From Novosphingobium sp. 28-62-57 (GTDB taxonomy: Bacteria; Pseudomonadota; Alphaproteobacteria; Sphingomonadales; Sphingomonadaceae), in contig NCGO01000008.1 of NCBI GenBank assembly GCA_002256985.1, positions 62,001-126,000 on the forward strand: a stretch of DNA of 64,000 nucleotides. The letters are read 5' to 3'. Below, in pieces: positions 10,976-48,377 of the stretch. The position numbers were made by a program, and so were the translations under genes. Every line of letters begins with the position of its first letter. Within the stretch, counting starts at the first letter, position 1. The notes beneath the pieces are model-generated. The model saw only the letters and a program-made list of their open reading frames with translations. It was not told where the DNA came from and did no database searches.

Positions 10976-11004
10976 TTTCCGTTCCTCGTCCCGATTCCGT
11001 TTGC

Positions 11005-11028
11005 AATACCGGTATTTCTGCCGGTTTT
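11005..11028. promoter_or_regulatory. Candidate operator A, palindrome of the AAAACCGGC-N6-GCCGGTTTT type
   Basis: AATACCGGT, six bases, then GCCGGTTTT, 30 bases upstream of the Rieske gene start at 10975. The right arm matches the consensus fully and the left arm in seven of nine positions. Related sites occur at 20368, 26191, 26977 and 48261. Confidence 0.65.
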
Positions 11029-11152
11029 GCCCCTCTTGCGCGCGCGCGTCACCTTGCTGAAAGCATAGGTTGCACGAACGGCCAGCCCGCGTAACCACTC
11101 GCTCTATAATTCATACGCAATCTGGTCATTCGGATTCTCTGGGGAGAGAACA

Positions 11153-11935
11153 GTGTCAAAAAGACTCGAAGGCAAAGTCGCCCTGATCACCGGCGGCACC
11201 ACCGGCATCGGCGCAGCCACCGTGGCACGGTTGACCGACGAAGGCGCAAAGGTGTGGTTCACCGGATCGAAGGAAGAGGCCGCCGCAGCCCTATGCGCAC
11301 AGACCGGCGCGGTGTTTCGCAAACTGCGCGTGCAGGATGCAAGCGGCTGGCCCGGCCTGATTGACGAGATCATCGCCACTGAGGGCCGCCTTGATATCGT
11401 GTTCGCAAACGCGGGCACCGAAAGCGGCGATGCCAGCATTGAAGATGTGGGGATCGAAGGCTGGGACAATGTCGTGGCCGTCAACCAGACCGGCGTGATG
11501 CTCACCGTGCAGAACGCGATTAAGGGCATGAAGCGCAACCCCGAAGGGCCACGCGGTTCGATCATCATCAACTCCTCGATGAACGCCACGCGCCCCTTGG
11601 GCAATTATGTGACCTATTCGGTAACCAAGGCTGCCGTCTGCGCGCTGGCCAAGTCCGCCGCCGTCCACTGCGGGCAGCAGGGCTATGCCATCCGCGTCAA
11701 TGCGATCCTGCCCGGCGTGGTGGAAACGCCGCTGATCCAGCAGATCATGAACAGCCAGCCCGATCCCGCCGCCGCGCGCGCGATGTATGAAGGCATGGCC
11801 CCGATGAAGCGCATGGCGCAACTGAATGAAGTGGCGGGCCTTGTTGCCTATCTCTCATCCGACGAAGCCGGGTTCATCTCCGGCGCGGAATACGCGATCG
11901 ACGGCGCGACCACCGCCGGCATGATGGGAGTTTGA
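11153..11935 (+). CDS. SDR family NAD(P)-dependent oxidoreductase
   Basis: A 260-residue classical short-chain dehydrogenase. It has the cofactor motif T-G-G-T-T-G-I-G (residues ~13-20), A-N-A-G, the catalytic serine in N-S-S-M-N and the Y-S-V-T-K pair. The C-terminal G-A-E-Y-A-I-D-G-A is normal. It starts at a GTG with GGGGAG upstream. It is divergent from the Rieske gene, sharing a ~175-base control region that contains operator A, and is followed directly by a second SDR. It probably oxidises an alcohol or diol made by the oxygenases. Confidence 0.92.
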   Translation: MSKRLEGKVALITGGTTGIGAATVARLTDEGAKVWFTGSKEEAAAALCAQTGAVFRKLRVQDASGWPGLIDEIIATEGRLDIVFANAGTESGDASIEDVGIEGWDNVVAVNQTGVMLTVQNAIKGMKRNPEGPRGSIIINSSMNATRPLGNYVTYSVTKAAVCALAKSAAVHCGQQGYAIRVNAILPGVVETPLIQQIMNSQPDPAAARAMYEGMAPMKRMAQLNEVAGLVAYLSSDEAGFISGAEYAIDGATTAGMMGV

Positions 11936-11940
11936 AGCAC

Positions 11941-12756: not shown

Positions 12757-12793
12757 TGCTGTGTGCAGCACGCTGACGTTTCGACAACTCCAT

Positions 12794-12883: not shown

Positions 12884-12908
12884 GTCATTCAAAGGGATAA
12901 GGCCAACA

Positions 12909-13701: not shown

Positions 13702-14103
13702 TTAAGGGTTGGCCCCTGCGGCAATCCACGCGCGCACTTTGGCAATATCAGCACCGGGCAGCGGCGGCGCGCCGAACGGCATTTGCCCGCCGCTGCCGCC
13801 GTGCGTGATGTGGGTGCCCTCCAGTTTCATCACCAGATAGGACCGATCAGGATCGCCCGCCGCCACGCGCATCAGGGCGGGGGCCTCCTCGGCCGGTTTG
13901 CCCACCAGATAGGCGATGGCGGCATCTCCCACCAGCGACATGCCGCCCGCTTCCTCGCCCGTCAGGTGGCAGGTGGCGCACTGGCTTTCGAGCAGCGGCA
14001 CGATGTCCTTTGTATAGGACACCGCAGGCGCGCTGCCCTCATCGGCGTGGGCGGCGCACCCTGCCGCCAGCACCGCCGCGCCTGCCAGAAGGGCAAGCCT
14101 CAC
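13702..14103 (-). CDS. Cytochrome c family lipoprotein
   Basis: A 133-residue exported protein with one c-type haem site, C-A-T-C-H (near residue 43). The N-terminus is a lipoprotein signal peptide with lipobox L-A-A-G-C near residue 15, so the protein should be membrane-anchored and face the periplasm. A C-terminal methionine in Q-M-P-F-G could be the axial ligand. The GTG at 14103 overlaps the stop of the flavoprotein gene (GTGA, 14100-14103); the longer open frame upstream would lie inside that gene and is rejected. Coupling to an exported flavoprotein suggests it accepts electrons from that enzyme. Confidence 0.87.
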   Translation of the reverse strand: MRLALLAGAAVLAAGCAAHADEGSAPAVSYTKDIVPLLESQCATCHLTGEEAGGMSLVGDAAIAYLVGKPAEEAPALMRVAAGDPDRSYLVMKLEGTHITHGGSGGQMPFGAPPLPGADIAKVRAWIAAGANP

Positions 14104-15839
14104 GCCGTCACCGCATGTTTGCCGGCGATGTAGCCAAACGTCACCGCCGGGCCAATCGTGCCGCCCGCGCCCAGATAGGCCTGGCCTGTGGGCGCGGCCA
14201 CGCAATTGCCCGCGGCATAAAGGCCGGGGATCGGCAGTCCGTTGGCGCCCAGTACTTGCGCATGGGCGTTGATCTGCGGCCCGCCTGCGGTATCCAGCGT
14301 GCCCGGCGCCAGTACGATGGCATAGAATGGCCCCTTGGCCGCAAACGGGTGCATCGTGTTGTTGGGGAAGGGATTGGCAGGCTGCGTGGTGCCTTCGCGC
14401 CGGGCCGAAAATAGCAGGTGCCATTCGCGGTCATAAAGATATTTGCCGCGCCCGAATTCGGGATCGACGCCCTTTTTGGCATAGCCGTTGAACGCGGTGA
14501 TCGCAGCCTTGGCATTCGCGCCAAATTCGCTGGCCAGCCGTACGCCCCCGGTGCGGTCCTGCCATCCGGCCAGTTGTGCGTCGATCTTGGCAAAGACCTC
14601 GTCCCAGCTCATCCCTTCGATCAGGTGCGGCTGTTCGGCCTTGTTGACAGGGAAAGGGAACGCTCCGCCGAAAGCATCGATGCTGCGTTCGTCAAACAGC
14701 ATGAACATCAGATGGTTGGGATATTCCTCGTGCGCCGGGTCATAGCTGAAGTGCGCCTGCGTGCGGTCATTATAGTCGCGCTTTTCGTTGACCACGCGCT
14801 TGCCATACTTGTTGACGAGGATCATCGAATCCCCCGGCAGCACGAAGGCTCCCAGCCCGATCCCGCGCGTTTTCAGCGCCTCACCCAGCACCACCTGGCT
14901 GCGCCAGCCAAAGCCCATATTGCCCATCATCGCGCCTGCTTCTTGCGCAATCGGGATGAAATCGCCGGTCGATCCGGGGGTGGAGCAGGTGCCGTAAACA
15001 GCGGGCTGGTGCATGTCGCACAGCGCAGCGTTGTGGCTATAACCGCCGGTGCCAAACACCACGCCCTTGGTGGCCTTGATCCGCAGCAGCTTGTCGCCCT
15101 GTTTTGCCTCCGCGCCGATCACCCGGCCCGATGCATCCTTGATCAGCCGCGTTACGCGGGTGCGCGTGAGGATCGGCGTGCCCTTGGCTTTCAGATAAGC
15201 GTGCATCTGTGACGCAAGGCTGCCGCCGCCCTGTGATGAGCCTGATCCCACCGCTGGTTCCAGCGCGCGGCCGGTTGGCACTTTGTTTTCGGGCAGGTGG
15301 TCGGCGTAATCGGGGGCGGGCTTGTCCACCTGAAACAGGCGGAACTGCTTGAACTGCACCGCGCCCAGATCGCGCAAATGGTCAATCGCGGCAGCGCCGT
15401 GATCATAGAATGCCTCAACCACGCCAAACCGCGTTGCATCAAGGCCCAGCGTCGGGCTGTTGGGGTTGTATTGGCGCGGATAGCCATAGCGGACGACATA
15501 GCGCAGCGCATCGGCCTTCGGATCCGCAATGCCCTGTTCTCGAAAGATGAAGTGGTTGAAAATCCACGTAACGCCGCCAGACTTGGCCGTGGTGCCGCCA
15601 AGGATCGGCATCTTTTCCACCATCAGCACTTTGGCCCCGGCGGCAAGGGCCGTGATCGCCGCCGTGCCCGCCGCCGCGCCGCTGCCCACGCACAGGACAT
15701 CGCATTCATGGTCCCAGGCTGCATCAGATGGCGCTTGCGCCTGTGCTGCGCTGGCGATTCCGCCGCCTGCGGCAATGGCCGCAGCAACGCCTGCGCCCGC
15801 CAGCACTTGCCGGCGGCCGATCATGGGTTTGTCTGTCAT
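14100..15839 (-). CDS. FAD-dependent oxidoreductase, Tat-exported (fumarate reductase / ketosteroid dehydrogenase-like)
   Basis: A 579-residue flavoprotein. The N-terminus has a Tat signal (G-R-R-Q-V-L-A-G-A-G, then an Ala-rich stretch and A-Q-A-Q-A), so it is expected to be folded with FAD and exported. The FAD site is V-G-S-G-A-A-A-G-T near residue 52, with a second FAD block near the end (A-A-G-N-C-V-A-A, then G-A-G-G-T-I-G-P). This is the FAD_binding_2 family, which includes fumarate reductases, 3-ketosteroid dehydrogenases and urocanate reductases. It is coupled to the cytochrome c lipoprotein by a GTGA overlap, which suggests periplasmic substrate dehydrogenation with electrons passed to cytochrome c. 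Confidence 0.87.
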   Translation of the reverse strand: MTDKPMIGRRQVLAGAGVAAAIAAGGGIASAAQAQAPSDAAWDHECDVLCVGSGAAAGTAAITALAAGAKVLMVEKMPILGGTTAKSGGVTWIFNHFIFREQGIADPKADALRYVVRYGYPRQYNPNSPTLGLDATRFGVVEAFYDHGAAAIDHLRDLGAVQFKQFRLFQVDKPAPDYADHLPENKVPTGRALEPAVGSGSSQGGGSLASQMHAYLKAKGTPILTRTRVTRLIKDASGRVIGAEAKQGDKLLRIKATKGVVFGTGGYSHNAALCDMHQPAVYGTCSTPGSTGDFIPIAQEAGAMMGNMGFGWRSQVVLGEALKTRGIGLGAFVLPGDSMILVNKYGKRVVNEKRDYNDRTQAHFSYDPAHEEYPNHLMFMLFDERSIDAFGGAFPFPVNKAEQPHLIEGMSWDEVFAKIDAQLAGWQDRTGGVRLASEFGANAKAAITAFNGYAKKGVDPEFGRGKYLYDREWHLLFSARREGTTQPANPFPNNTMHPFAAKGPFYAIVLAPGTLDTAGGPQINAHAQVLGANGLPIPGLYAAGNCVAAPTGQAYLGAGGTIGPAVTFGYIAGKHAVTA

Positions 15840-18924: not shown

Positions 18925-20346
18925 TCAGCCCTCCGCCGCCAGATACTTGTCGATCACCATCTGGAAATGCCGGATGCGCGATTCCTGATAGTTGCCCAGG
19001 TTCTGCACGCCCACCGCGCTGGCCCGGAAGCCCTGCTGCTGCGCGCGCAGATTGTCGGTGTCCTGATCATAGACATGGCCCATCGCCGGATCAAAGCCCG
19101 GTGCGCTGGCATAGCTTTCATGCTCGGCCACATGATAGGGCTCAGGCGGTTCGGGCACGCGCCCGCTCATCGGATTGGGCCGCAGGAACAGGATTTCAAA
19201 CAGCGTGCGGTTGGGATCGCTGCCGATGGGGCGGAAACGATAGACCATTGGGAGCGACAGGCCGGGGAACAGCACCATGTTGGGGAACACGTGATATTCG
19301 ATGGTGTCGATCATCTCGCTGTCCGACACGGCGGAAAGATCGGTCTGATACGCCTCGCCCATGATCTTGCGCAGATGCCGCGCCATCACGGTGCGCGCGG
19401 TTTCGCCTTCTTTCACATCAAGGCTGTCGTCGCGTGAATCCTTGTCGCCCAGAATCATCGTGGCCAGCAGTTCCTTTTCGGACAGGGGCTGGGCCAGATG
19501 CGGGGAATTGACCCCGCTGGCGGCATAGAACCGCGTCACGTGATCGGAATGGCAATCGTATTGCACATTGGCATCGCCCACACCCTTCAGGAGCTGCGGG
19601 TGGGTTTCGAGCACGTGGTACGATTCAAGGAACGCTTCCTGCGCGGTCTTCCAGTTGCAGGGCAGATCCTTGGACACGTGAACCGCGATATAGCGGTTTG
19701 CAATGTCCCAGTCCTTGAAGTGATCGGGCAGGGGGCTCAGGTATTCCTCAAGGCTAGGCCCGTCCTGCGATGGATTGATGAACACGAACCCGCCCCAGTG
19801 GCCAACGCGGGCCTCGGGCAGGTTGGTCTTGGCCGCATCGATATGCTTGAAATCCCACGCGCAGGGGACAGAGGCCAGCGTGCCATCGTTGTTCCACGTC
19901 CAGCCGTGATAGGGGCAGCGCAGATTGTCACCCGAGCCCACGCCTTCGCCGCGTTTGAATTTGGTCGAGCGGTGGAGGCACGAGTTCACGAAAGCGCGCA
20001 CCGACATGTCGTCCTGCCGCACGACGACATAAGAAAGGTGTGCGACTTCATAGGTATAGAAGTCGCCCGGCTCAGGAATGTGATCCTCTCGGCAGACCCA
20101 TTGCCAGGTCTTTTTCCAGATCTTTTCGATCTCGGCCTCGAAAATGGACTGGTCGAAATAGCGGCTCACGCTGACCGGTGCGCTGCCGAGGAATGCCGGT
20201 TCTTCCATCGCCAGCACGGGCGGCGGGGGCAGGGCATCGGCGGCCACGATCTGCTGCATGCTGGGTGCATCGGGACAGCGGATGGCGGCCAGATCTTCGC
20301 CTTGCACAGGTTCGGGCAGGCCGTGGGGATTGATGGCTTCCAGCAT
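18925..20346 (-). CDS. Rieske non-heme iron oxygenase, alpha subunit
   Basis: A 473-residue oxygenase closely similar in plan to the one at 9569. The Rieske ligands are C-L-H-R-S and C-P-Y-H-G-W (near 135-158), and the iron site is E-A-F-L-E-S-Y-H-V-L-E-T-H-P. The C-terminus ends with the same Y-Q-E-S-R-I-R-H-F-Q pattern seen at 9569 (Y-Q-E-I-R-I-R-Q-F-H), which supports paralogy. It is the first gene of a minus-strand operon. Its 84-base upstream region carries operator B at 20368 and, further up, an inverted ACCTAG/CTAGGT pair. Confidence 0.93.
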   Translation of the reverse strand: MLEAINPHGLPEPVQGEDLAAIRCPDAPSMQQIVAADALPPPPVLAMEEPAFLGSAPVSVSRYFDQSIFEAEIEKIWKKTWQWVCREDHIPEPGDFYTYEVAHLSYVVVRQDDMSVRAFVNSCLHRSTKFKRGEGVGSGDNLRCPYHGWTWNNDGTLASVPCAWDFKHIDAAKTNLPEARVGHWGGFVFINPSQDGPSLEEYLSPLPDHFKDWDIANRYIAVHVSKDLPCNWKTAQEAFLESYHVLETHPQLLKGVGDANVQYDCHSDHVTRFYAASGVNSPHLAQPLSEKELLATMILGDKDSRDDSLDVKEGETARTVMARHLRKIMGEAYQTDLSAVSDSEMIDTIEYHVFPNMVLFPGLSLPMVYRFRPIGSDPNRTLFEILFLRPNPMSGRVPEPPEPYHVAEHESYASAPGFDPAMGHVYDQDTDNLRAQQQGFRASAVGVQNLGNYQESRIRHFQMVIDKYLAAEG

Positions 20347-20367: not shown

Positions 20368-20391
20368 AAAACCGGCAGCAGTGCCTGTTTT
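20368..20391. promoter_or_regulatory. Candidate operator B (AAAACCGGC-N6-GCCTGTTTT)
   Basis: Lies 22 bases upstream of the Rieske start at 20346. On the minus strand it is preceded by T-C-C-A and reads CATAAAACAGGC, a context shared with operator C, so it may overlap a -10 element. Arms match the consensus in 9/9 and 8/9 positions. Confidence 0.72.
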
Positions 20392-20430
20392 ATGGACTGT
20401 GTAGCGATTCGCCTCAACCTAGCGGTTGCA

Positions 20431-21645
20431 CTAGGTCGGCCAGACCAGCTCCACGCGGCGCAATGCGCCAACGATGCCGGGGACGGGCGAAAGATCGCTA
20501 TCTGGGCCGATGGCGAAATCGGGAATGCGCCGCAGCCATTCCTCCAGCGTGATCGCCACTTCCTTGCGCGCCAGTTCCTGCCCCGGGCACATGTGCGGGC
20601 CGGAGCCGAAGGTGGAATGGCGTGGGCGGTTGCGGGTGGTATCAATGACCAGTGGATCAGCATTCACGCGCGGGTCCAGCCCATGGACTTGCGTGGGGAT
20701 GGCAATCATGTCGCCTGCCTTGAGCGTGACGCCATGGAAATCGGCAATTTCGTTGCGCACCTCGCGCGCGATGGTGACAAGGCCAAAGCGGCGGAACAGT
20801 TCATGGACCACCGGCGTCAGATCGTCCCCGCGCGCTTGCAGGTCGGTGCGCAAGGCCGGGTTTTGCGCCAGTTCGTGCATGATGAAGCCCAGCACGTTGA
20901 CCACAGTGTCCAGCCCGGCAATCAACACTTGCGTAACGATGGACAGGGCCTCGTCCCGCGTCAGGCGGCGGCCTTCGCCAAGATCGGCATGCAGCATCGC
21001 GCTGATCATGTCTTCGCCAGGGGTGTGGAGCCGTTCGTCCACCAGCGGGCCGACATAATCGAAGAACACCGCCTTGGCCTCGTCAAAGGTCATGTCCATG
21101 CCGGGGCGAGTCATGCATTCGGCCCAGTGGCGGATTTTTGGCGCTTCTGATGCATCGATGCCGACCAGCGCCATGAACACGCGGATCGGGAATTGCTGCG
21201 CATATTCAGCGGTGAAATCGCAGTGCCCGCGCGCGGCAAACCCCTCGATCAGTTCGACCGCCGTGGCCCGAATGCTCTCCGCCGCGCCCCGGATTGCGCC
21301 GGGGTTCAAGTGGGCGTTGAGGAGCTGGCGATAGGGCCGGTGCTCGGGCGGGTCGATGGTGGTGGGGATCAGCCCGTGCATCTCGCCCACCGATTTGGGC
21401 AAGACGATGATGCGCGAGGAAAACCGTTCAGGATCAGACTGCACATCAAACAGCGCCGGCCCGCCCAGCGCGATCCAGTGCCCTTCGTTGCGCGGCGTCC
21501 AGACCACAGCGGGATGCTGCGCGGACAGATCGCTCCACGCCTTGTGAAAGCCGTGGGCCTCCAGTCCGGGCGGGACGTAGATGTCGATGTCGACGATCCG
21601 GTCGGCTGGAACGTGGGCTGGAACGTGGGCTGGCGCTTGCGTCAT
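20431..21645 (-). CDS. Cytochrome P450
   Basis: A 404-residue bacterial class I P450. It shows the oxygen-binding I-helix A-G-L-D-T, the E-L-F-R of the ExxR motif, and the haem loop F-G-S-G-P-H-M-C-P-G with the proximal cysteine. It should need a ferredoxin and reductase; none is adjacent. Near the N-terminus a 12-base tandem repeat (21604-21633) encodes a repeated A-H-V-P. It is in the middle of a minus-strand run: SDR at 21755 upstream and Rieske at 20346 downstream. Hydroxylation of an alicyclic substrate is the likely role. Confidence 0.94.
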   Translation of the reverse strand: MTQAPAHVPAHVPADRIVDIDIYVPPGLEAHGFHKAWSDLSAQHPAVVWTPRNEGHWIALGGPALFDVQSDPERFSSRIIVLPKSVGEMHGLIPTTIDPPEHRPYRQLLNAHLNPGAIRGAAESIRATAVELIEGFAARGHCDFTAEYAQQFPIRVFMALVGIDASEAPKIRHWAECMTRPGMDMTFDEAKAVFFDYVGPLVDERLHTPGEDMISAMLHADLGEGRRLTRDEALSIVTQVLIAGLDTVVNVLGFIMHELAQNPALRTDLQARGDDLTPVVHELFRRFGLVTIAREVRNEIADFHGVTLKAGDMIAIPTQVHGLDPRVNADPLVIDTTRNRPRHSTFGSGPHMCPGQELARKEVAITLEEWLRRIPDFAIGPDSDLSPVPGIVGALRRVELVWPT

Positions 21646-21754
21646 GGTGATCTTCTCTCGCTTTTGCCAAGGATCATGCGCCCGCCCGCCGCCCGATGTG
21701 CCTCACGTTTTGGATAGGGCAGCGCGGGGCGGAAAGTCCGTCAGCCCCCCAAGC

Positions 21755-23806: not shown

Positions 23807-26125
23807 TCAGAAGTTGTATCCCACGGTCACGCCGAACTGGCGCGGCGGGGCATAGCCGACCAGGCCCATGTAGCCGGGGCTGTCGTAAACGGTTGAGATA
23901 TAGCGTTTGTCGAACAAGTTCTTGCCCCACAGGCCAATCGAATAGCGCCGGTCCGGCCCGTAATAGGTGAGCAGCGCATCGACATAATAGGTCGGCTGGA
24001 TCGATGAGCGCGGGGAGTTGACCACGGCAGTGTAGAACTTCTGGCCCGTGTACATCCAGCTGACATCGGCCACCACGCTGGCACCGCTGGCAAATTCGGT
24101 GGTGTAATTCACCCCCAGCGTCGATGCCCAGCGCGGCGCGTTTTGCAGCGCAAAGCCTTCAAGGCTGATCGTGGTGCCGCCCACCGGATCAAAATACAGG
24201 AAGTCCTTGTACTTGGTATCGAGGAAAGCGAGCGAGCCGCGCAGGGTCAGGCCATCGGTGGGCACGGCCTGCAGTTCGAGTTCAAAGCCCTTGATCTCGG
24301 ATTCCGCAGCATTGAGGATGCGGTTGCCCTGCACATTGGTGGCCGGATCGAAATAGATCTGCGCGACCTGCATATCGCGATAGCTTGTATAGAACGCGGC
24401 AAGATTGGCGCGCAGGCGGCGGTCGAGGAAATCGGCCTTCAGGCCCACTTCGAACGTATCGACCTTTTCGGGGTTGTAGGGCGCGTTGCCATCTGCGGCC
24501 ACGCCGATGCGGCCGGTAAAGCCACCCGATTTGAAGCCGCGCGCCCAGTTGGCATAGACCAGCTGGTTCTGGCCCATCTCGTAATCGAGGCCGATCTTCC
24601 AGCCCACGTTGCTCCAGCTTTTCTTGCCGCCCACATCAAGGCTACCGGGGAACACCACATCGAACCGGTCCCAGTTGGGCGAGGTCAGCGCCTCGCTGCC
24701 AAGGCCGGTATCGAGCGTGGCGCGCGCATCGATGCTGTCATGCGTGTAGCGTAGGCCCGCCGAGAGTTTAAGCCGGTCGGTGATTTCGGTGTAGGTTTGC
24801 ACGAAGGCCGAGAAGCTCTCGGTGCTCTGATCCTGCACGTTATACTGGATCAGGCCGGGCAGCGCGAAATCCAGATGATACATCTGGTAGTGGTTGTAAT
24901 CGGTCTTCAGGTAAAACAGCCCTGCCACGGCGTTGAAGCTGTCGCCCATGCTGAAGGCGGTGCGCAGCTCCTGGCTGAACTGCCAGCCACGCGTGCGGCG
25001 GCGGGTGGCGTTGTTGGTCTTGGCGGTGCCATCCTGATCGGTATATTCGAACAGGGTGAAGTTCTTGTACCCGGTGATCGCGGTAATATCGCCCAGCGGG
25101 GTGTTGTCATACTGGATCGTGCCGATGAAGAACTTCGTCGTCATGTCCGACTGATCGGGCACTTCATTGTTGCCCGAAAAGTATTCATCCGGCGCAGTGC
25201 AGGGCTGGTTTGGTACAGCGCAGGGGCTGCGATACATCGGCAGGACGGCGTTGTTCCAGAACGTGCCTTCTGGCACGTAATTGGCCTCACCCGGCAGGCC
25301 ACCGTTGACCACGATGGGCGCTCCATTGCGCGCCGCCACATATTCGCCCTGCAGCGTGATGGTAAGATCGGTGTTGGGCGTGATGCGCAATTGCCCGCGC
25401 ACCGCATCAACATTCTTGCGGCCCATGTCCTCGCCGTTCCACACGTTCGTCACCCAGCCTTCGCGCTGGGTGTGGATGCCCGAAACCTTGAGGCTGACCA
25501 CATCCTTGACCAGCGGTGCTTCGATTGATGCGTTCACATCGAACCGGTTCCAGTTGCCATAAGTGCCACGCACATAGCCGCCGAATTCGCCAGTGGGCTG
25601 GTTGGTGATCACGTTGACCACGCCGCCTGTCGTGTTTGCGCCAAACAGCGTGCCCTGGGGCCCGCGCAGAATTTCCACGCGGTTGGTGTCATAGGTATCG
25701 AGCAGCGCGCCCATCGAGAAGAACTGCGGCACGCCATCGACCACGATCGACACGGTGTTGCCAGCATAGGGATCGGGTTCGATCACGCCGATGCCGCGAA
25801 TGGTGAAAACGGCGTTGTTGGGGGTGTTCGCGAAGTTATCGATCTGCACGTTGGGCACCGCGCCCTGCAGCGCCTGCAGCGTCGTCACGTTCATCGCGGT
25901 CAGCGTATCGCCGCCCACCGCCGCAATCGAGATTGGCACCGACTGGATGCTTTCCGAACGCTTTTGTGCGGTCACGATGATTTCGGTGAGGCCGCCCGTG
26001 GCGCCTGCGTCATCAGCCTGCGCTTGCGGTGCATCTGCTGCCTGCGCCATCGCCATGGCGGGCGTTGCGGCCAATGCCAGCAGCGACAGGCTGCTGAGCA
26101 GGCGTGATCCGGTATTGGCTTTCAT
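23807..26125 (-). CDS. TonB-dependent receptor
   Basis: A 772-residue outer-membrane transporter. It has a signal peptide (to A-M-A-M-A-Q-A near residue 28), a TonB box E-I-I-V-T-A-Q-K-R near 48, a plug domain with R-G-I-G-V and E-I-L-R-G-P-Q-G-T-L-F-G, and a long beta-barrel ending in the expected terminal aromatic residue (V-G-Y-N-F). It belongs to the same subclass as the receptors at 45780 and 51314 (Q-S-V-P-I-S-I after the box). It is divergent from tetR, with operator C between them, and a terminator follows. Import of the bulky pathway substrate is the likely role. Confidence 0.95.
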   Translation of the reverse strand: MKANTGSRLLSSLSLLALAATPAMAMAQAADAPQAQADDAGATGGLTEIIVTAQKRSESIQSVPISIAAVGGDTLTAMNVTTLQALQGAVPNVQIDNFANTPNNAVFTIRGIGVIEPDPYAGNTVSIVVDGVPQFFSMGALLDTYDTNRVEILRGPQGTLFGANTTGGVVNVITNQPTGEFGGYVRGTYGNWNRFDVNASIEAPLVKDVVSLKVSGIHTQREGWVTNVWNGEDMGRKNVDAVRGQLRITPNTDLTITLQGEYVAARNGAPIVVNGGLPGEANYVPEGTFWNNAVLPMYRSPCAVPNQPCTAPDEYFSGNNEVPDQSDMTTKFFIGTIQYDNTPLGDITAITGYKNFTLFEYTDQDGTAKTNNATRRRTRGWQFSQELRTAFSMGDSFNAVAGLFYLKTDYNHYQMYHLDFALPGLIQYNVQDQSTESFSAFVQTYTEITDRLKLSAGLRYTHDSIDARATLDTGLGSEALTSPNWDRFDVVFPGSLDVGGKKSWSNVGWKIGLDYEMGQNQLVYANWARGFKSGGFTGRIGVAADGNAPYNPEKVDTFEVGLKADFLDRRLRANLAAFYTSYRDMQVAQIYFDPATNVQGNRILNAAESEIKGFELELQAVPTDGLTLRGSLAFLDTKYKDFLYFDPVGGTTISLEGFALQNAPRWASTLGVNYTTEFASGASVVADVSWMYTGQKFYTAVVNSPRSSIQPTYYVDALLTYYGPDRRYSIGLWGKNLFDKRYISTVYDSPGYMGLVGYAPPRQFGVTVGYNF

Positions 26126-26190: not shown

Positions 26191-26214
26191 AAAACAGGCC
26201 CTGCTGCCGGTTTT
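26191..26214. promoter_or_regulatory. Candidate operator C (AAAACAGGC-N6-GCCGGTTTT)
   Basis: Lies between the divergent TonB-dependent receptor (start 26125) and tetR (start ~26294), 66 bases from the receptor start. On the minus strand it reads TTCATAAAACCGGC, matching the TCCATAAAAC context of operator B. It is placed to control both genes. Confidence 0.75.
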
Positions 26215-26293
26215 ATGAACCGAACTAGGGTGGCGATGTAACTGGCGGTTTTGTCAGGAGGCCTTGGCAAGGCGATCCGGGCATGACAGGACA

Positions 26294-26971
26294 ATGACGA
26301 TGGCCGGTTCCACTATGCAAAAGCGCATGCTCGCCGCGATGCGCCCGAATGGGTTGGGTGAAGAGCCCGCCCGCTGGCAGCAACGCAAATCCGCGCAAAC
26401 GCGGCAGAAAATGCTTGAAGCTGCAGTCGATTGCCTGGTCGAGGGCGGTTACGCCGGGTTGACCACGGCGCGCGTGGCCGAACGCGCCGGGATTTCACGC
26501 GGCGCAATGCACCACCACTTCGCCACGCGAATCGATCTGGTCGGCGCGGTGGTTGAACATGTATTCTATCAGCGGATGCGCCTGTTTCTCGAAGATTACC
26601 TGGCCAGCATGGCGCAAAGCCGGGATGAACGGCTGATCGATTTGGCCACCGAGGCACACTGGCGCAGCGTGCTGACGCGCGAATATGCGGCCTATCTTGA
26701 ACTGGCCGTGGCCGCGCGCACCGATGCCGAATTGAACACCACGTTCGAACCAGCCGCGCGCCGCTATGACGAAGTGTGGACCGCCGAGATGATCGAATCC
26801 TTCCCGCAATGGCGTGACCAGTGGGAAGCGATGAAGCTGGGCAGTGATTTTGCCATCGCCGTGCATTCCGGTCTGTTGCTTCATCGCCCAGTGTTCGGCC
26901 CGCAGCGGGTGGAGCAGGTGTTGCGAATGTCGATGGAATCGATTCGCGGGCTCTATCGAACTGAGGGCTAA
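26294..26971 (+). CDS. TetR/AcrR family transcriptional regulator
   Basis: A 225-residue repressor-type regulator. The N-terminal helix-turn-helix is clear: R-Q-K-M-L-E-A-A-V-D, then A-G-L-T-T-A-R-V-A-E-R-A-G-I-S-R-G-A-M-H, then H-H-F. The C-terminal ligand domain is diverged. The ATG at 26294 is one of several in-frame starts (TTG at 26264, ATG at 26300). It is the only TetR gene in the window and is flanked by two copies of the 24-bp palindrome (26191 and 26977), so it is the best candidate for the protein that binds this motif and controls its own expression. Confidence 0.9.
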   Translation: MTMAGSTMQKRMLAAMRPNGLGEEPARWQQRKSAQTRQKMLEAAVDCLVEGGYAGLTTARVAERAGISRGAMHHHFATRIDLVGAVVEHVFYQRMRLFLEDYLASMAQSRDERLIDLATEAHWRSVLTREYAAYLELAVAARTDAELNTTFEPAARRYDEVWTAEMIESFPQWRDQWEAMKLGSDFAIAVHSGLLLHRPVFGPQRVEQVLRMSMESIRGLYRTEG

Positions 26972-26976: not shown

Positions 26977-27000
26977 AAAACCAGCAGCTATGCCGGATTT
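26977..27000. promoter_or_regulatory. Candidate operator D (AAAACCAGC-N6-GCCGGATTT)
   Basis: Follows the tetR stop by five bases and lies 96 bases upstream of the SDR start at 27097. Each arm differs from the consensus at one position. Confidence 0.65.
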
Positions 27001-27096
27001 CTCACCTAAGTATCAGTTCCGCAAAACCGCGATGCGGGCAAAGTTGTGTTTCGCAAAGAACAGGACCGCACGCACGGTCAGCAATGGGAGAGCGTT

Positions 27097-30911: not shown

Positions 30912-31073
30912 GCTTCTGTTGCCTCTCCGTGGCGCTTTTGGCCGAATGTTGCTGCAGACCATGCCGTGCCCAAGCCTGAGGGGGAAGCTGTGACAGGGGC
31001 TAGGTTTGGGGAATAGGTTACTCGCCTTTTCGCCAATTGCGGGGCAGGGGTGGCGCTTGGGACAAGCAAACGC

Positions 31074-32726
31074 ATGAACGAGAACACCACCAAGCCATGG
31101 GACTGGCTGCCGATTCCCGCCCCCCACCAACACGCTTTTGCGGCAAGTGGCGCATGGGCAATGCAGACTCTGGCCGATCTGGCGCGCGAACGCGCCGCGC
31201 AGGCGCCTGATTTCGTGTGCTTTGTGGATGGCGAAGGGCACTACACTTTTGCGCAGGTGCTGGCGCAAGCTGAGGCGCTTGCCGCAGCGCTGCAGGCGCG
31301 CGGGTTGCAGGTCGGAGACGTCATCGCCTTTCAGGTGCCCAATTGGCGCGAGGCGGCGGTGATCAATCTGGCGGCGGTGATTGCGGGGCTGGTGGTCAAC
31401 CCGATCGTGCCGATCTACCGCGATGCCGAAATGCTGATGATGCTGGGCGATTGCGGGGCCAAGGCGATCTTCGTGCCACAGACGTGGCGCAAGGTTGACT
31501 ATGCCGCCATGGCACAGCGGTGCAGCGATGCGCTGCCCGATCTGGCGCATGTCTTCACGGTGCGCGGGCATGGGCCGGATGATTTTGCTGCACTTGTTGC
31601 ACAAGGTGCCGGTGCAGCATTTGCACCACCCATGGTTGATCCGATGGGCGTGAAGATGGTGCTTTACACCTCGGGCACCACCGGGCGGCCCAAGGGCGTG
31701 CTGCACAGCCACTGCACCTTGACGCGCATCGTGGCGGAAAGCGGGCGGCACTGGGGGCTGAACGCAGGCGAGGCGACGCTGATGCCATCGCCGGTCACGC
31801 ACGTATCGGGCTATGCCAACGGGCTCGAAGCGCCGTTCATCTGCGGCATCCGCGCGGTGCTGATGGAAGCGTGGAATGCGGCTGATGCGCTGGCACTGAT
31901 CGAGGCGCACCAATGCGTTGGCACCGTGGCGGCAACGCCGTTCCTTGTCGAACTGGCAGCGGCGGCGCGGACGGCGGGCACGGGCCTTCCCAGCTTCCGC
32001 TTCTTTGCCTGCGGCGGCGCGGCGGTGCCGGCAGACCTGATCCCGGCAGCCAATGCCGCATTCGAAAACTGCAAGGCTTTCCGCGTGTTCGGTGCATCCG
32101 AAGTGCCGCTGGTGACCTTCGGCTGGCCCGCGGATGAGCGTCTGGCGGCGACCACCGATGGCGAAGTGGTCGATTACGATGTGCGTATCGTTGACCACGA
32201 AGACAAGCCGCTTGGCGCAGGCCGTGAGGGCGAAATCCTCGCCCGCGGCCCCGCCATGATGCTGGGCTATGCCGATGCCGCGCAGACCGCCGAAGCGATC
32301 ACCCCGGACGGCTTCTTCCGCACCGGCGATCTTGGCGTGATGACCGCCGACGGGGCCTTGACCATCACCGGCCGCAAGAAAGACCTGATCATTCGCGGCG
32401 GCGAAAATATCTCTGCCAAGGAGATCGAGGACGTGCTGCACACGCACCCCGCCGTGGGGGAAGCCGCCGTCGTGGCTATGCCGCATGAACGGTTGGGCGA
32501 GGGTGTCTGTGCCTATATTATCCTGCGCGGCGAGGCGGATGCGGCGATGCTCGCCGCACATGTCGGCGCATCGGGCCTGGCCAAACAGAAAATCCCCGAA
32601 CGCTTCGAATTCATGGACGATTTTCCCCGCACCGCCAGCGGCAAAGTGCGCAAGGATCAGTTGCGGGCGATGGTGGCGGTCGCTGTGAAGAACCCGTCGG
32701 AACTGCCGCGTGAGACGCAAGTGTGA
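31074..32726 (+). CDS. AMP-dependent acyl-CoA synthetase/ligase
   Basis: A 550-residue adenylate-forming enzyme. The ATP-binding loop is Y-T-S-G-T-T-G-R-P-K-G; G-A-S-E is at the A5 position; R-T-G-D-L-G and G-R-K-K-D-L-I-I-R-G-G-E-N-I-S mark the hinge; and the catalytic lysine lies in A-S-G-K-V-R-K. It activates a carboxylic acid to its CoA thioester, presumably the entry step for the downstream beta-oxidation genes. The ATG at 31074 is used; a GTG at 31050 with GGGGCAGGGG upstream is an alternative. It opens a long plus-strand gene block. Confidence 0.93.
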   Translation: MNENTTKPWDWLPIPAPHQHAFAASGAWAMQTLADLARERAAQAPDFVCFVDGEGHYTFAQVLAQAEALAAALQARGLQVGDVIAFQVPNWREAAVINLAAVIAGLVVNPIVPIYRDAEMLMMLGDCGAKAIFVPQTWRKVDYAAMAQRCSDALPDLAHVFTVRGHGPDDFAALVAQGAGAAFAPPMVDPMGVKMVLYTSGTTGRPKGVLHSHCTLTRIVAESGRHWGLNAGEATLMPSPVTHVSGYANGLEAPFICGIRAVLMEAWNAADALALIEAHQCVGTVAATPFLVELAAAARTAGTGLPSFRFFACGGAAVPADLIPAANAAFENCKAFRVFGASEVPLVTFGWPADERLAATTDGEVVDYDVRIVDHEDKPLGAGREGEILARGPAMMLGYADAAQTAEAITPDGFFRTGDLGVMTADGALTITGRKKDLIIRGGENISAKEIEDVLHTHPAVGEAAVVAMPHERLGEGVCAYIILRGEADAAMLAAHVGASGLAKQKIPERFEFMDDFPRTASGKVRKDQLRAMVAVAVKNPSELPRETQV

Positions 32727-32874
32727 TCGCGCAACCGCAAAGCTTTTACCAAAATCGTGCGCTGCTCGCTTGCGCGCCCTGTCCATTTGCGCACCCTAGC
32801 GTTTTGCAGAGTCGGCAAATGCCTCTGCGACAGGTCTAGTGACTGTAACAGCAACCAAAAGAATCGGGAGAGTG

Positions 32875-39729: not shown

Positions 39730-40911
39730 TTGACCATCAGCAGCGAAGCATTGGACGTTGCCGCCCGCGTGGAGGCTTTCGTGCGCGGCACGGTATTCGC
39801 CTATGAGCAGGACCCCCGCCGCGATCACCATGGTGCGCCGACCGATGAACTGGTCATGGAATTGCGCGCGCTGGCGCGTGAAGCGGGCGTGCTTACGCCG
39901 CATATCCGCAACGATGGCGGGCACTTCAACCAGCGCGAAACCGCGGTCATCCTGATCAAGTCTGGCCTGACCCCGCTCGGCATGCTGGCGTGCAACACGC
40001 AGGCCCCCGATGAGGGCAACATGTACCTGATCGGCAAGGTCGGCAGCCCCGATCTGAAGGAGCGCTTCCTGAAGCCGCTGGTCTCGGGCGAGGCGCGCTC
40101 GGCCTTTTTCATGACCGAACCGGCCGAATTGCAGGGCGCGGGCGCGGACCCTTCGATGATGATCACCACCTGCCGCAAGGACGGCAACCACTGGGTGGTC
40201 AACGGCAAAAAGGCCTTCATTACCGGGGCGGACGGGGCCAAAGTCGGCATCGTCATGGCCAAATCGGAAGATGCCGACAGCAAGGGCGGGGCCTGCATGT
40301 TCCTGGTCGATCTGCCCGATCCTGCCATCCGCATCACCCGCGTGCCCAACACTATCGATAGCTCGATGCCCGGCAGCCATGCCGAGATCGACATCGTGGA
40401 CTTGCGCATCCCCGCCGATCAGATGCTGGGCGATGCGGGCGAGGGCTTCAAATACGCGCAGATACGCCTTAGCCCCGCGCGCCTTTCGCACTGCATGCGC
40501 TGGCTGGGCGGGTGCATCCGCGCGCAGGAGATTGCGGTCGATTATGCCAACCGCCGCATGGCCTTTGGCAAGCAGTTGATCGATCACGAAGGCGTTGGCT
40601 TCATGCTGGCGGAGAACATGATCGATTTGCAGCAGTGCGAACTGATGATCGATTGGTGCGCGGGCGTGCTCGATAGCGGATCGCTGGGCACGGTAGAAAG
40701 CTCCATGACCAAGGTCGCCGTGTCCGAAGCGCTGATGCGTGTCGCCGACAAATGCGTGCAGGTGCTGGGCGGCACGGGCGTGACCGACAAAACCATCGTG
40801 GAAACCATGTTCCGCGAAATCCGCGCCTTCCGCATCTATGACGGCCCCACCGAAGTCCACAAATGGAGCCTCGCCAAGAAGCTCCGCCGCGATTGGAAAG
40901 CCGCGCAATGA
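39730..40911 (+). CDS. Acyl-CoA dehydrogenase family protein, ACAD10/11-like
   Basis: A 393-residue ACAD with a C-terminal Y-D-G-P-T-E-V-H, the motif of the ACAD10/11 subgroup, in place of G-G-T-N-E. It has the middle M-T-E-P-A-E block. It starts at a TTG (39730) after GAGGG. The stop overlaps the start of an APH-type kinase gene (ATGA, 40908-40911). This pair mirrors the domain fusion in eukaryotic ACAD10/ACAD11, where the kinase phosphorylates a 4-hydroxyacyl-CoA and the dehydrogenase domain removes the phosphate. An analogous role here is inference. Confidence 0.9.
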   Translation: MTISSEALDVAARVEAFVRGTVFAYEQDPRRDHHGAPTDELVMELRALAREAGVLTPHIRNDGGHFNQRETAVILIKSGLTPLGMLACNTQAPDEGNMYLIGKVGSPDLKERFLKPLVSGEARSAFFMTEPAELQGAGADPSMMITTCRKDGNHWVVNGKKAFITGADGAKVGIVMAKSEDADSKGGACMFLVDLPDPAIRITRVPNTIDSSMPGSHAEIDIVDLRIPADQMLGDAGEGFKYAQIRLSPARLSHCMRWLGGCIRAQEIAVDYANRRMAFGKQLIDHEGVGFMLAENMIDLQQCELMIDWCAGVLDSGSLGTVESSMTKVAVSEALMRVADKCVQVLGGTGVTDKTIVETMFREIRAFRIYDGPTEVHKWSLAKKLRRDWKAAQ

Positions 40912-41972
40912 CCAGCGTAGCGGACGCGAACAAGGGCGCGGGCAAGGTCCGCGTTGCGTTTGATGAAGCGGCGCTGGCAGCGTGGCTTGCGGCGAATGTC
41001 GAGGGCTACACCGGTCCGCTGACAGTCGAACAATTCAACGGCGGCCAGTCCAACCCCACCTATCGCCTGACCACGCCCACCGCGCGCTACGTATTGCGCC
41101 GCAAACCGCCCGGCCCCTTGCTCAAAGGCGCACACGATGTGCTGCGCGAGGCGCGGGTGCAAACTGCGCTCTTTGGCACCGGGGTTCCCGTCGCCCGCAT
41201 TTTCGGCACGTGCGAGGACGAGAGCGTGATCGGGAGCGCGTTCTATGTGATGGATATGGTCGAAGGCCGGGTGATCTGGGACGCCTCATTCAGCGAAGTG
41301 CCCACGGCCGAGCGCGCCGCCTATTTTGACGAGATGAACCGCGTGATCGCCGCGCTGCATTCGGTGGATTATCAAGCGGTTGGCCTTGGTGAATATGGCC
41401 GCCCCGGCAATTACTTCGCCCGCCAGATTGGCCGCTGGTCAAAGCAATATCTGGAAGACGACCTGGCTGGGCGCCTGCCCGATATGGATGCGTTGGTCGA
41501 ATGGCTGCCCACGGCCATTCCCGATGGCGATGAAACCACCGTCGTCCACGGGGATTTTCGCTGCGATAACATGATCTTCCACCCGACAAGCCCACGCGTG
41601 CTGGCGGTGCTCGATTGGGAGCTGTCCACGCTCGGCCACCCGCTGGCAGACTTTGCCTATCACGCGATGATGTACCGCATGCCGGGCGATATCGTGGCGG
41701 GGCTGGGCGGCGCAGACCCGGTGCCGCTGGGCCTGCCGACCGAAGCCGAATACATCGCCGCATATTGCGCGCGGACGGGGCGGACAGAAATCCCCAACTG
41801 GGACTTCTACCTCGCCTTCAACTTCTTCCGCCTCGCCGCAATCTTCCACGGCATCAAAGGCCGCGTCCTGCGCGGCACCGCCACCAACGCACAGGCCAAG
41901 GAACGCGCCGAAGCGCTGCCAAGGCTTGCGGCATTGGCGCGCGCGGCGATGGAAAGCTGCATTGGCGCGTAA
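40908..41972 (+). CDS. APH-type phosphotransferase (ACAD10/11 kinase-domain-like)
   Basis: A 354-residue aminoglycoside-phosphotransferase-fold kinase. It contains V-H-G-D-F-R-C-D-N (catalytic loop), V-L-D-W-E-L-S-T-L-G (metal-binding loop) and an N-terminal F-N-G-G-Q-S-N-P-T-Y loop. The start at 40908 overlaps the acyl-CoA dehydrogenase stop; the in-frame ATG at 40863 would lie inside that gene. With its partner it resembles LvaA and ACAD10/11-type kinases that phosphorylate 4-hydroxyacyl-CoA. Aminoglycoside resistance is unlikely. Confidence 0.9.
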   Translation: MTSVADANKGAGKVRVAFDEAALAAWLAANVEGYTGPLTVEQFNGGQSNPTYRLTTPTARYVLRRKPPGPLLKGAHDVLREARVQTALFGTGVPVARIFGTCEDESVIGSAFYVMDMVEGRVIWDASFSEVPTAERAAYFDEMNRVIAALHSVDYQAVGLGEYGRPGNYFARQIGRWSKQYLEDDLAGRLPDMDALVEWLPTAIPDGDETTVVHGDFRCDNMIFHPTSPRVLAVLDWELSTLGHPLADFAYHAMMYRMPGDIVAGLGGADPVPLGLPTEAEYIAAYCARTGRTEIPNWDFYLAFNFFRLAAIFHGIKGRVLRGTATNAQAKERAEALPRLAALARAAMESCIGA

Positions 41973-45758: not shown

Positions 45759-45779
45759 GTCATTTCCGGGACGCGTGGA

Positions 45780-48236
45780 TCAGAAGCGCTTGATCACCGA
45801 GACTTGCACCGTGCGGGGCAGGTTGCCGAAGCCGAGCTGATCGGCGCGCACGCCGGCTGCTGTGCCAGTGCCGCCGCCGGTGGAGGGGCCATCGACCACG
45901 CCGCTGACGAAGAAACGGTTGGTCAGGTTCTTGCCGATCACCGCGATCTGCCAGTTGTCATCTTCTGCGCCAAAGCGGATGCCCGCATCGAGCACCGCAT
46001 ACTGGCCCTGCCGCGAGAAGACATTGCCAAAGCCCGAGGCGAGATAGCTGGACGAGTAGCGGGTATCGACATTGAAGCCGATCTTCAGGCCTTCGCCCGC
46101 AGTGGTATCATAACCCACGCCAAAAGCGCCGGTCCATTCGGGCGCGACCGAAAGCGGCGCGCCGTTCAAGTTCTGCCGCGCATCCAGCCCGCCCACCAGC
46201 GTGCAGCCCTGTGCCGGGGTTTGTCCGGCAAAGCACGGGGCCTGCGGGAAATCGGTGTAGCGGGCGTGGGTATAGTTGATTGAACCATGGACGTTGAGGC
46301 CATCAATCGCACGCGGTGCATATTCGAAATCAACTTCGACACCCTTGGTGCGCGCATCGGCGGTCAAGGTCTGGAACGCGAAGATTGGCGAGTTGAAGAA
46401 GTCTACCTGCAGATCGCTGTAGGCATAAGTGAAGGCGACGAGGTTCAGGCGCAGCTGGTTATCGGCCAGCGTGGTCTTGATCCCGGCTTCGAAGCCGCGC
46501 GCCTTTTCAGGGTTGAAGGTCAGGTCGGCCAGCGGATTGGCAGAGAATTTGGAGTTGATGCCGCCGTTGGAAAAGCCGCCTGATTTGTAGGCCGTCTTGT
46601 AGGCACCATAGACGAGGATGCCATCCTGCGGCTTCCACGTGAGGGTGACTTCGGGTGACCAATCATCAAACACTTGCGCAGCGGTGATTTCCCCCAGGCC
46701 ATCAGGATCGGCCTGATCGCGGAAAATGCCTTGTACGCCCAGATTGTTGTAAGGCTGGGTGAAGAAGCTGTCCTTGGTTTCATGCGTATAGCGCACGCCG
46801 CCTGCCACTTCGAGCGTTTCGGCCAAAGCCCAGCTGACCTGCCCGAACAGGGCCATCGTCTCACCATCGGTGAAGCTGGTTTTGGACGAGGCGACGAAGC
46901 GGTTGGCTGCCGATGCCTGATCATCACGCAGGCCTGCAAACATCACGTACTGTTCAAAATCGCGCTTGGTCTTTTGATACAGGCCGCCAACCATCAGGTT
47001 GATCGGGCCATCAAAGGCTGTCTGCGCGCGCAGTTCCTGGCTGAAGGCCTTCCACGTGGCGTTTTCCGTCGCCCATGTGCCGGTGTCGCTGCTCTGGAAA
47101 TCGCAGGCGCAAGCCCAGCGGTTGTTGTTGGTGTTGTAATTGGTGATCGAGCTGATTGTCAGATTGTCCAGCTCGTAGCTCACCGCGCCGTTGATCGCCC
47201 ATGACCGGTAGCGGTTGTAAAGCGACCCATCTTGCTTGGCGAAGGGGAAGTTGGCGGCAATATCGGCCGGCATATTGTTTTGATGCGTGACGAAATCGGT
47301 GCCGCACGGATAGCCGGTCAACTGGCTGATCCCATCGGCCCGCCCGCAGTTATAGGCCACATAGTTCCATGAGGAATTGTTGACCTGGTTGTAGTTGTAC
47401 GAACCCTTCAGCGTCATCGTCAGACTATCATCGGGCGTGTATTTCAGCGTGACACGGCCGAGGAATTCATCCTCGCCGGGCTGGCGCGACGGGGCTGGCT
47501 TGGCGACCGAGGCCAGCGGATTGCCACTGCCCCCTGCCAGCACGTTGCGGATGTCGACCGTGGTATAGGTGCGGTCCACCGAGACATTGCGATAGTAACC
47601 GCCGTCCATGATCGACCCGCGCGCGGCAAAGCGAACGCCCAAGCTTTCGGTCAGCGGGATCGAGGCGATCAGTTCGCCCTGATACTGGCGTGAGCGGAAT
47701 TCATAAGCGGCGCGGGCGACGAATTCGCGGTCCTGCCCCGGATCGTTGGTGGCAAGGCTGATGACGCCTGCCGTGGCGTTCTTGCCAAAGAACAGCGCTT
47801 GCGGGCCTTTGAGCACTTCGACCCGCTTCAGATCGAAGAAGCCTTCCTGAATGATGCGGCCCTGCCCGTAATAGGCGCCATCGACCACGACGGCGACGGA
47901 CTGTTCGATGCCGATCGAGGTGGAGGATGAACCGATGCCGCGCATGGTCAACTGCGCGCCCGAACCGTTCGACGCGCGCCCCACATTGAGGTTCGGCGTG
48001 GCGGCGGCGATCTTTTCAATCGAGGTGATATCGCGCTGCTGAATGGTCTTTTCCGAAATCGCCAGCACGGCAACGGGGACCGACTGCACCGATTCCTCGC
48101 GCTTGCGGGCGGTGACGATGATTTCTTCAAGACCGCCGCTGCTGACAGCGTCCTGCGTTGCTTCTTGCGCATGCACAACCGGCGCGCTGCCCAGAATGCA
48201 GGACGCGAGCAGCCACGACTTTGCGGAAATCTTCAA
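45780..48236 (-). CDS. TonB-dependent receptor
   Basis: An 818-residue outer-membrane transporter. The start is a TTG at 48236, with GGGAGAG five to six bases upstream, followed by a clear signal peptide ending V-V-H-A-Q-E. The TonB box is E-E-I-I-V-T-A-R-K-R; the plug has R-G-I-G-S and V-L-K-G-P-Q-A-L-F-F-G; the barrel ends V-S-V-I-K-R-F with a terminal aromatic. The open frame goes on upstream to 49226, antisense to the MDR gene, and is rejected. It is the same receptor subclass as those at 23807 and 51314. Operator E lies just upstream and a terminator downstream. Confidence 0.94.
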   Translation of the reverse strand: MKISAKSWLLASCILGSAPVVHAQEATQDAVSSGGLEEIIVTARKREESVQSVPVAVLAISEKTIQQRDITSIEKIAAATPNLNVGRASNGSGAQLTMRGIGSSSTSIGIEQSVAVVVDGAYYGQGRIIQEGFFDLKRVEVLKGPQALFFGKNATAGVISLATNDPGQDREFVARAAYEFRSRQYQGELIASIPLTESLGVRFAARGSIMDGGYYRNVSVDRTYTTVDIRNVLAGGSGNPLASVAKPAPSRQPGEDEFLGRVTLKYTPDDSLTMTLKGSYNYNQVNNSSWNYVAYNCGRADGISQLTGYPCGTDFVTHQNNMPADIAANFPFAKQDGSLYNRYRSWAINGAVSYELDNLTISSITNYNTNNNRWACACDFQSSDTGTWATENATWKAFSQELRAQTAFDGPINLMVGGLYQKTKRDFEQYVMFAGLRDDQASAANRFVASSKTSFTDGETMALFGQVSWALAETLEVAGGVRYTHETKDSFFTQPYNNLGVQGIFRDQADPDGLGEITAAQVFDDWSPEVTLTWKPQDGILVYGAYKTAYKSGGFSNGGINSKFSANPLADLTFNPEKARGFEAGIKTTLADNQLRLNLVAFTYAYSDLQVDFFNSPIFAFQTLTADARTKGVEVDFEYAPRAIDGLNVHGSINYTHARYTDFPQAPCFAGQTPAQGCTLVGGLDARQNLNGAPLSVAPEWTGAFGVGYDTTAGEGLKIGFNVDTRYSSSYLASGFGNVFSRQGQYAVLDAGIRFGAEDDNWQIAVIGKNLTNRFFVSGVVDGPSTGGGTGTAAGVRADQLGFGNLPRTVQVSVIKRF

Positions 48237-48260
48237 TGTATCTCTCCCATCTACCTTATA

Positions 48261-48284
48261 GAAACCGGCATAACTGCAGGTTTT
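48261..48284. promoter_or_regulatory. Candidate operator E (GAAACCGGC-N6-GCAGGTTTT)
   Basis: Lies 24 bases upstream of the TTG start of the TonB-dependent receptor and ~95 bases upstream of the divergent MDR gene at 48378. The arms match the 9-base consensus in 8/9 and 8/9 positions. Confidence 0.65.
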
Positions 48285-48377
48285 GGCCTGACCCACTGCG
48301 AATAAAGCCAGACTGTCCTTTTGGAGAGGTGAGGCGCCGCTGCCGTAGCGGCACCCCGTACCTTGAGAGGAAATGCC

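Follow-up and report, generated by a model that had tools for sequence, protein, structure and literature searches.

The window analysed here, a stretch of 64,000 nucleotides of Novosphingobium sp. 28-62-57 (assembly GCA_002256985.1, contig NCGO01000008.1, positions 62,001 to 126,000 of the forward strand), holds a catabolic island with a tetR gene and five copies of a 24-bp palindrome, AAAACCGGC-N6-GCCGGTTTT, here called operators 1 to 5. The original prediction had proposed that these palindromes form a regulon controlled by the TetR protein. This link was supported by a genome-wide scan, tetR-linked sites in relatives, positional counterparts and a joint change of recognition helix and operator in one clade, and the palindrome is most probably the operator recognised by the product of 26294-26971, a TetR-family repressor. 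The features concerned are the following (mismatches counted against both arms of the palindrome; matrix described below).

7377-57915: catabolic island with Rieske oxygenases and SnoaL_4 proteins, short-chain dehydrogenases/reductases (SDRs), a CYP101-like P450, a KstD-like flavoprotein, three TonB receptors, acyl-CoA dehydrogenases, a ChsH2-type OB (oligonucleotide/oligosaccharide-binding) protein and thiolase, and a 2-oxoacid dehydrogenase.
26294-26971, plus strand: tetR, gene of the proposed repressor (start assumed at the ATG at 26294; open reading frame (ORF) 26264-26971; TetR_N E = 1.8e-12).
11005-11028: operator 1, between a Rieske oxygenase gene (9569-10975, minus) and an SDR gene (11153, plus); 2 mismatches, matrix score 29.3.
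20368-20391: operator 2, before a Rieske oxygenase gene (18925-20346, minus); 1 mismatch, 37.0.
26191-26214: operator 3, between a TonB receptor gene (23807-26125, minus) and tetR (plus); 1 mismatch, 31.8.
26977-27000: operator 4, between tetR and an SDR gene (27097, plus); 2 mismatches, 26.4.
48261-48284: operator 5, between a TonB receptor gene (45780-48236, minus) and an alcohol dehydrogenase (ADH) gene (48363, plus); 2 mismatches, 26.4.

All five palindromes were present where they had been predicted, none as a perfect copy, and they were the only matches in the window at up to three mismatches, for which dinucleotide shuffles gave an expectation of 0.03. According to our own gene calls, which leave 10.4% of the region 6488-57915 intergenic, all five lie between genes. 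The distances from the operators to the likeliest starts were 29 bp (Rieske, 10975), 21 bp (Rieske, 20346), 65 bp (TonB receptor, 26125), 96 bp (SDR, 27097) and 24 bp (TonB receptor, TTG at about 48236), in agreement with the 20-100 bp originally noted for these five genes. Also the TCATAAAAC/CCATAAAAC context described as common to two of the sites was found, at 26191 and 20368.

In the whole genome (4,102,969 bases, or 4.10 Mb, in 39 contigs) the palindrome matched at up to two mismatches solely at the five sites of the window, and the reversed pattern matched once. At up to three mismatches there were 12 operator matches against 14 of the reversed control, and the excess over chance is therefore limited to the set with at most two. 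The random or genic occurrence throughout the genome that would have spoken against a regulon was thus not seen at two mismatches, where the matches are the five intergenic island sites; at three there was no excess. A symmetric matrix built on 57 distinct sites from other genomes (consensus AAAAC[CA]GGC-N6 followed by its complement, the central bases being much more variable than the arms) ranked the operators of the window first to fifth with scores from 37.0 to 26.4, the sixth match scoring 8.2. The best score in 30 Markov windows was 13.4, and no operator was found in the flanks of the window on its contig (112 kb; best matrix score 5.7).

The best score in 280 kb of control sequence was 16.5, and two further control matches (16.1 and 13.7) sit within long ORFs; all three are below the five of the window and above most shuffles. 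The match scoring 16.5 is an operator-like site with three mismatches, found on a different contig of this genome (G000:C19:65466; L211:15466-15489) some 210 bp upstream of an ORF for a TonB receptor, and may be either a distal member of the regulon or a chance match.

The translated ORF 26264-26971 matched TetR_N with 47.3 bits (Pfam cut-off 24), and it was the only one to do so among the window proteins scanned, a set that includes part of the small ORFs, in keeping with the earlier observation that two sites flank the sole tetR gene. Its structural model (predicted local distance difference test score, pLDDT, 88.7) showed nine helices in a TetR-like fold and matched 223 PDB entries at E ≤ 0.001; the 50 of these that were listed are transcriptional regulators, most of them of TetR type by name. 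A homolog with 37% identity is present elsewhere in the same genome (C21), and tetR homologs were found at E ≤ 1e-25 in 40 of 397 genomes of the family.

Among the homologs from the search of the 397 genomes, 29 loci included 13 sites at up to two mismatches and none of the reversed pattern. A site at up to four mismatches was present in the retrieved stretch of 19 of the 20 loci with the best match (L014-L033, identity 48-63%), and only one of the nine remaining loci (L034-L042, 38-49% identity) had a match, which has four mismatches and lies about 1 kb away from tetR. The named-genome set, which partly overlaps the 29 loci, consisted of the best 80 of 108 confirmed tetR loci; from loci L130-L149, L148 alone entered the analysis. 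The 1.47 Mb around these 80 homologs included 64 sites at up to two mismatches and no reversed ones, while 100 palindromes with shuffled arms gave a mean of 0.03 and a maximum of 1 on the same sequence. In 46 of the 80 loci a site at up to two mismatches was no more than 400 bp away from tetR; at up to three mismatches this was so in 53. Sites with at most one mismatch occurred in eight of the 397 family genomes, of which five belong to the 22 genomes holding a close TetR homolog, a group that we set from the homolog search (5, 3, 17 and 372 genomes; Fisher p = 1.6e-5), and in all five at least one such site was less than 1 kb from tetR.

With the window proteins as queries, each of the five operator positions was matched by a site at the equivalent place in one or more other genomes. 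Operator 2 recurred at the same place, before RieskeC, in L050, L052, L053 and L055-L058, operator 1 before the SDR11153 homolog in L082, and operator 5 between the homologs of TonB receptor 45780 and ADH 48363 in L120. The positions of operators 3 and 4, 5' and 3' of tetR, were repeated in many relatives, and the 3' site often precedes an extra Rieske gene that is not found in the window.

In the motif SRGAM-x-HH at the recognition helix (residues 40-46 of the TetR model) the residue x was His in 68, Gln in five, Leu in six and Ala in one of the 80 homologs. All five Gln-type loci were without the standard site, the best match 5' of tetR having 6-7 mismatches, and they carry at this place the palindrome ATAACARTCC-N4-GG--TGTTTY. 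The variant pattern ATAACAGTCC-N4-GGACTGTTTT, derived from these same five loci, was matched within three mismatches in four of them and at four in the fifth, compared with none of the 68 His-type loci within three (L056 at four). It was repeated 28-33 bp before RieskeC in two of the five. Both paralogs are present in four genomes, and in all of these the variant lies in the 3'-of-tetR promoter of the His-type locus, with 1-2 mismatches to ATAACARTCC-N4-GG--TGTTTY; in L070 it is a hybrid with one standard arm. At up to two mismatches the variant was found in no other of the 75 non-Gln loci. As judged from these alignments, the change of the recognition helix goes with a change of the operator in one clade; the five Gln-type homologs form a single supported clade (Shimodaira-Hasegawa-like approximate likelihood ratio test, SH-aLRT, 99), and the co-change therefore represents one event.

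Some observations speak against the assignment of the palindrome to this TetR. Many of the loci are closely related, and the counts are therefore not independent events. No site at up to three mismatches was present within 400 bp in 16 of the 68 His-type homologs, several of which have a site with four. Seven of these 16 look unlinked to the island (L059, L063, L064, L065, L066, L074 and L088, five of them forming one clade), and their genomes hold 0-1 sites at up to two mismatches. Finally, a distant Gln-type homolog outside the clade, in G237, shows neither palindrome, so that the helix co-change rests on one clade.

A second element accompanies the operators, and the original prediction, which described the TetR operators, overlooked it. 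It is a 20-bp dyad, CCT-N12-AG[GT], which we take to resemble the lux box in geometry. It was present 22-27 bp upstream of four of the five window operators, and the fifth is abutted at its other end by a weaker dyad. The dyads, with their matrix scores, and the gene of a candidate activator are listed below.

20417-20436, minus strand: dyad ACCTAGTGCAACCGCTAGGT, 25 bp before operator 2; 19.0, the best in the window.
26240-26259, minus strand: dyad, 25 bp before operator 3; 18.7.
48311-48330, minus strand: dyad, 26 bp before operator 5; 12.6.
11051-11070, both strands scoring: dyad ACCTATGCTTTCAGCAAGGT, 22 bp before operator 1; 7.3 (minus) and 10.0 (plus).
26999-27018, plus strand: weaker dyad, abutting operator 4 at offset 22 from the operator start; 8.7.
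53764-53783, minus strand: dyad without operator, before TonB receptor 51314-53683 and overlapping the longest reading of ORF 53773; 18.9.
57031-57050, minus strand: dyad without operator, before SDR 56205-56966; 15.5.
21700-21719, minus strand: dyad without operator, before P450 20431-21645; 13.7.
6488-7270, minus strand: LuxR-type regulator gene (product LuxR6488), candidate activator at the dyads.

The weak sixth copy of the palindrome proposed at 53696 scored 0.7 in the operator matrix, against 26.4-37.0 for the five, and was dropped on this score; its promoter bears the dyad at 53764, which lies 44 bp off and thus not at the usual spacing.

When the positions of the dyads were counted in relatives (two of 87 sites were left out as too near the locus ends), a dyad was found 20-30 bp before the operator at 42 of 52 sites 5' of tetR and at seven of 13 distant sites, compared with 0.6% expected by chance. 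The sites 3' of tetR have a weaker dyad downstream, the best match being at offset 22 and sharing operator bases in the window and 11 of 20 relatives. The dyad matrix was trained on 42 distinct dyads of other genomes picked for CCT-N12-AG[GT], and its core positions are therefore fixed by selection. It gave 11 hits scoring at least 10 in the window and 2.6 in Markov windows. Nine of the 11 are intergenic by our gene calls, one overlaps the uncertain start of ORF 53773, and one is inside 29733-32786.

The protein LuxR6488 has a C-terminal GerE domain (PF00196, 52.6 bits, residues 195-248), and no Pfam match was found in its N-terminal part. Its model (pLDDT 71.6) was aligned by Foldseek with QscR, LasR and TraR and with the LasR ligand domain, weakly (template modelling score, TM, 0.4-0.6); over both domains the best matches were QscR, LasR, TraR and SdiA, with a whole-chain TM of about 0.4 and a root-mean-square deviation over 10 Å. 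These proteins likewise have a GerE C-terminus, and the dyad is like a lux box; they differ from LuxR6488 in that its fold match is weak and no luxI adjoins it, the single Autoind_synth (PF00765) match of the genome being on contig C27. A LuxR at least 70% identical was present in 18 of the 22 TetR-group genomes and in five of the 375 others. In 15 of the 18, the present genome included, it lies within about 40 kb of the group's tetR on the same contig, and in three on another contig; in G030 an operator was found 60 bp before the luxR match.

Ten regions with LuxR homologs were chosen by us from genomes without the operator-type TetR. In six of them dyads scoring at least 12 exceeded all 40 shuffles, two of the six (G162 and G006) being of the same genus and nearly alike. 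The place homologous to the dyad at 11051-11070, before the SDR11153 homolog, had a dyad in G289, G162, G006, G094 and G084; in the window also operator 1 is found there. Two observations concern other LuxR homologs. In L223 (G114) overlapping strong lux-box-like dyads (ACCTATTGAATAGGTCAGGT, score 23) are near tandem LuxR homologs, possibly as an autoregulatory array. In L155 (G288:C3:51343-52116) a homolog with 78% identity includes one TGA within the match, and the gene of G288 may be broken.

Activation of the island by a LuxR-type protein is fairly likely on these grounds. Several results run counter to it. No dyad was found 20-30 bp upstream of any of the 20 sites 3' of tetR; the dyads of these sites are weaker, and in nine of the 20 relatives the best match falls at an offset other than 22. 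The background of the dyad matrix in the 280 kb of the same genome was 2.5 hits per 64 kb scoring at least 10, against the 11 of the window. The simple dyad pattern was not enriched genome-wide (17 matches against 36 of the control), and the claim of the dyad therefore rests on matrix, position and recurrence only. A consensus scan recognised no sigma-70 promoter at operators 2-4, so that the placement of the -10 element is a guess. Four of the ten LuxR regions (G011, G054, G038 and G317) showed no dyad excess.

The upstream dyad might also be bound by an activator other than LuxR6488, or be part of an extended TetR site, which is possible and somewhat doubtful. The dyad is degenerate, its binding by LuxR6488 is a prediction, the LuxR homolog regions of G038 and G317 are without dyads, and LuxR homologs at E ≤ 1e-50, found in 112 of the 397 genomes, are far commoner than the TetR. 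Against this stand the lux-box geometry of the 20-bp dyad, the presence of dyads at orthologous promoters where a genome has this LuxR but not this TetR, and the lack of any further regulator among the scanned window proteins of the island. An unlikely alternative is that TetR acts on the palindrome as an activator, or as both activator and repressor. At operator 4, and in the 11 relatives with the same spacing, the operator is upstream of the dyad and not over the presumed start, and an activating member of the family, FasR, is known by the name of a model; at the other four promoters the operator follows the dyad and adjoins the gene, where repressors usually bind. Still less probable is that the palindrome belongs to another regulator, for example of LuxR type, and that tetR is a mere neighbour. 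The LuxR-type gene likewise travels with the island. However, in the 46 loci mentioned the sites lie within 400 bp of tetR, the operator was absent from all ten LuxR-homolog regions without this TetR (best score 9.3, against 26.4-37.0 in the window), and in one clade the type of the operator follows the recognition helix of TetR. Palindromes can be terminators or mobile repeats, and chance or such an element is hardly credible here considering the shuffled, reversed and shuffled-arm controls, the far greater variability of the central bases than of the arms and the location of the sites before genes.

The palindrome is thus best regarded as the TetR operator. Its sites and their positions, the linkage to tetR, the co-change in one clade and the persistence of dyads in some genomes without the TetR come from sequence comparison. 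Binding, the repressing sign of the control, the identity of the activator, the ligands and the start sites are those of a model that we infer. In this model TetR would, without an inducer, occupy the five island promoters, also upstream of its own gene, and would shut off uptake through two TonB receptors and early oxidation by two Rieske oxygenases and one SDR operon until a compound of the pathway released it. The dyads, both at the operator promoters and at those without an operator, would serve an activator of LuxR type, for which the product of 6488-7270 is the likeliest candidate. Two layouts could be distinguished: at operators 1, 2, 3 and 5 the dyad is about 25 bp upstream and the operator would cover the presumed -10 element or start, and at operator 4 the operator abuts the dyad and TetR would block the activator. 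A broader reading, to which we give about an even chance, is that an older LuxR-type activator had a lux-box-like regulon, on which the TetR repressor was later superimposed, in two geometries, at selected promoters. The helix would then have changed from His to Gln, together with a new operator, in one Novosphingobium clade that has two tetR paralogs; this operator type is also in the cluster of the other paralog, and on the same reading the two TetRs would therefore cross-wire a split pathway.

The contents of the island suggest an alicyclic, terpenoid- or steroid-like compound as its substrate, nothing in them being decisive. This class is suggested by the KstD-like flavoprotein (14100-15839), the best matches of which are 8am8-type chains (365 bits), 3-ketosteroid dehydrogenases being weaker, by the CYP101-like P450 (20431-21645) and by the ChsH2-type OB protein, which adjoins a thiolase. 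Bile-salt degradation in Sphingobium Chol11 has reportedly been treated by Feller et al. Bile-salt and estrogen clusters were considered as guides to the substrate, and the operators described for them in the available passages differ from that of the window. Within the island, an acyl-CoA dehydrogenase adjoins an aminoglycoside phosphotransferase (APH)-type kinase at 39730-41972, a pair known from 4-hydroxyacid catabolism. The 1017-aa ORF at 29733-32786 has a Rieske oxygenase as its C-terminal part and no Pfam match before about residue 680, unless its start is misplaced. Outside the island, a protein of the Ca2+-dependent phosphoinositide phospholipase C family (59798-60871; PF16670, 305.6 bits) is encoded between a major facilitator superfamily transporter and a TonB receptor.

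The system resembles that of EdcR of Caenibius tardaugens, a TetR-family repressor of a sphingomonad catabolic cluster with a proposed 24-bp palindromic operator, TnnCnnTACnAnTnGTAnnGnnA, in several promoters; this operator is described as overlapping the -10 box, with a less conserved copy before the regulator's own gene (PMC8700777). Compared by eye and at the level of the operators only, it is unrelated to AAAAC[CA]GGC-N6 and its complement, and the available text describes no LuxR-type box. In C. tardaugens also the bile-salt cluster bsd I, a steroid cluster of a sphingomonad, encodes a TetR (EGO55_16300), and palindromic operators have been proposed there, but the palindromes given in the accessible part, ATAGGGCCATTG and GCATGCGGGATGC, do not match the operator of the window (PMC12882949). 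PheR of Sphingobium sp. SHPJ-2 represses an operon for aromatic catabolism in a sphingomonad and also affects TonB genes, and differs, according to the passages available, in belonging to the IclR family and in its recognition core GCAACG (PMC13273656). No description of this operator, the paired dyad or the island was found in the titles, abstract openings and passages of the open-access PubMed Central literature. TetR-controlled catabolic clusters with 24-bp palindromes are known from the group through EdcR, and this operator with its paired dyad is, as far as these sources go, apparently new.

The catabolic island of Novosphingobium, Croceicoccus and their kin would thereby gain a probable regulator together with its operator and target promoters, and the compound relieving TetR could offer a quick route to the substrate of the island. 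The two paralogs, whose genomes contain both operator types, would provide a natural experiment in which the specificity of a TetR changed and the regulon was kept. If the LuxR-type part of the model is true, a LuxR regulator without a neighbouring luxI would gain direct catabolic targets.

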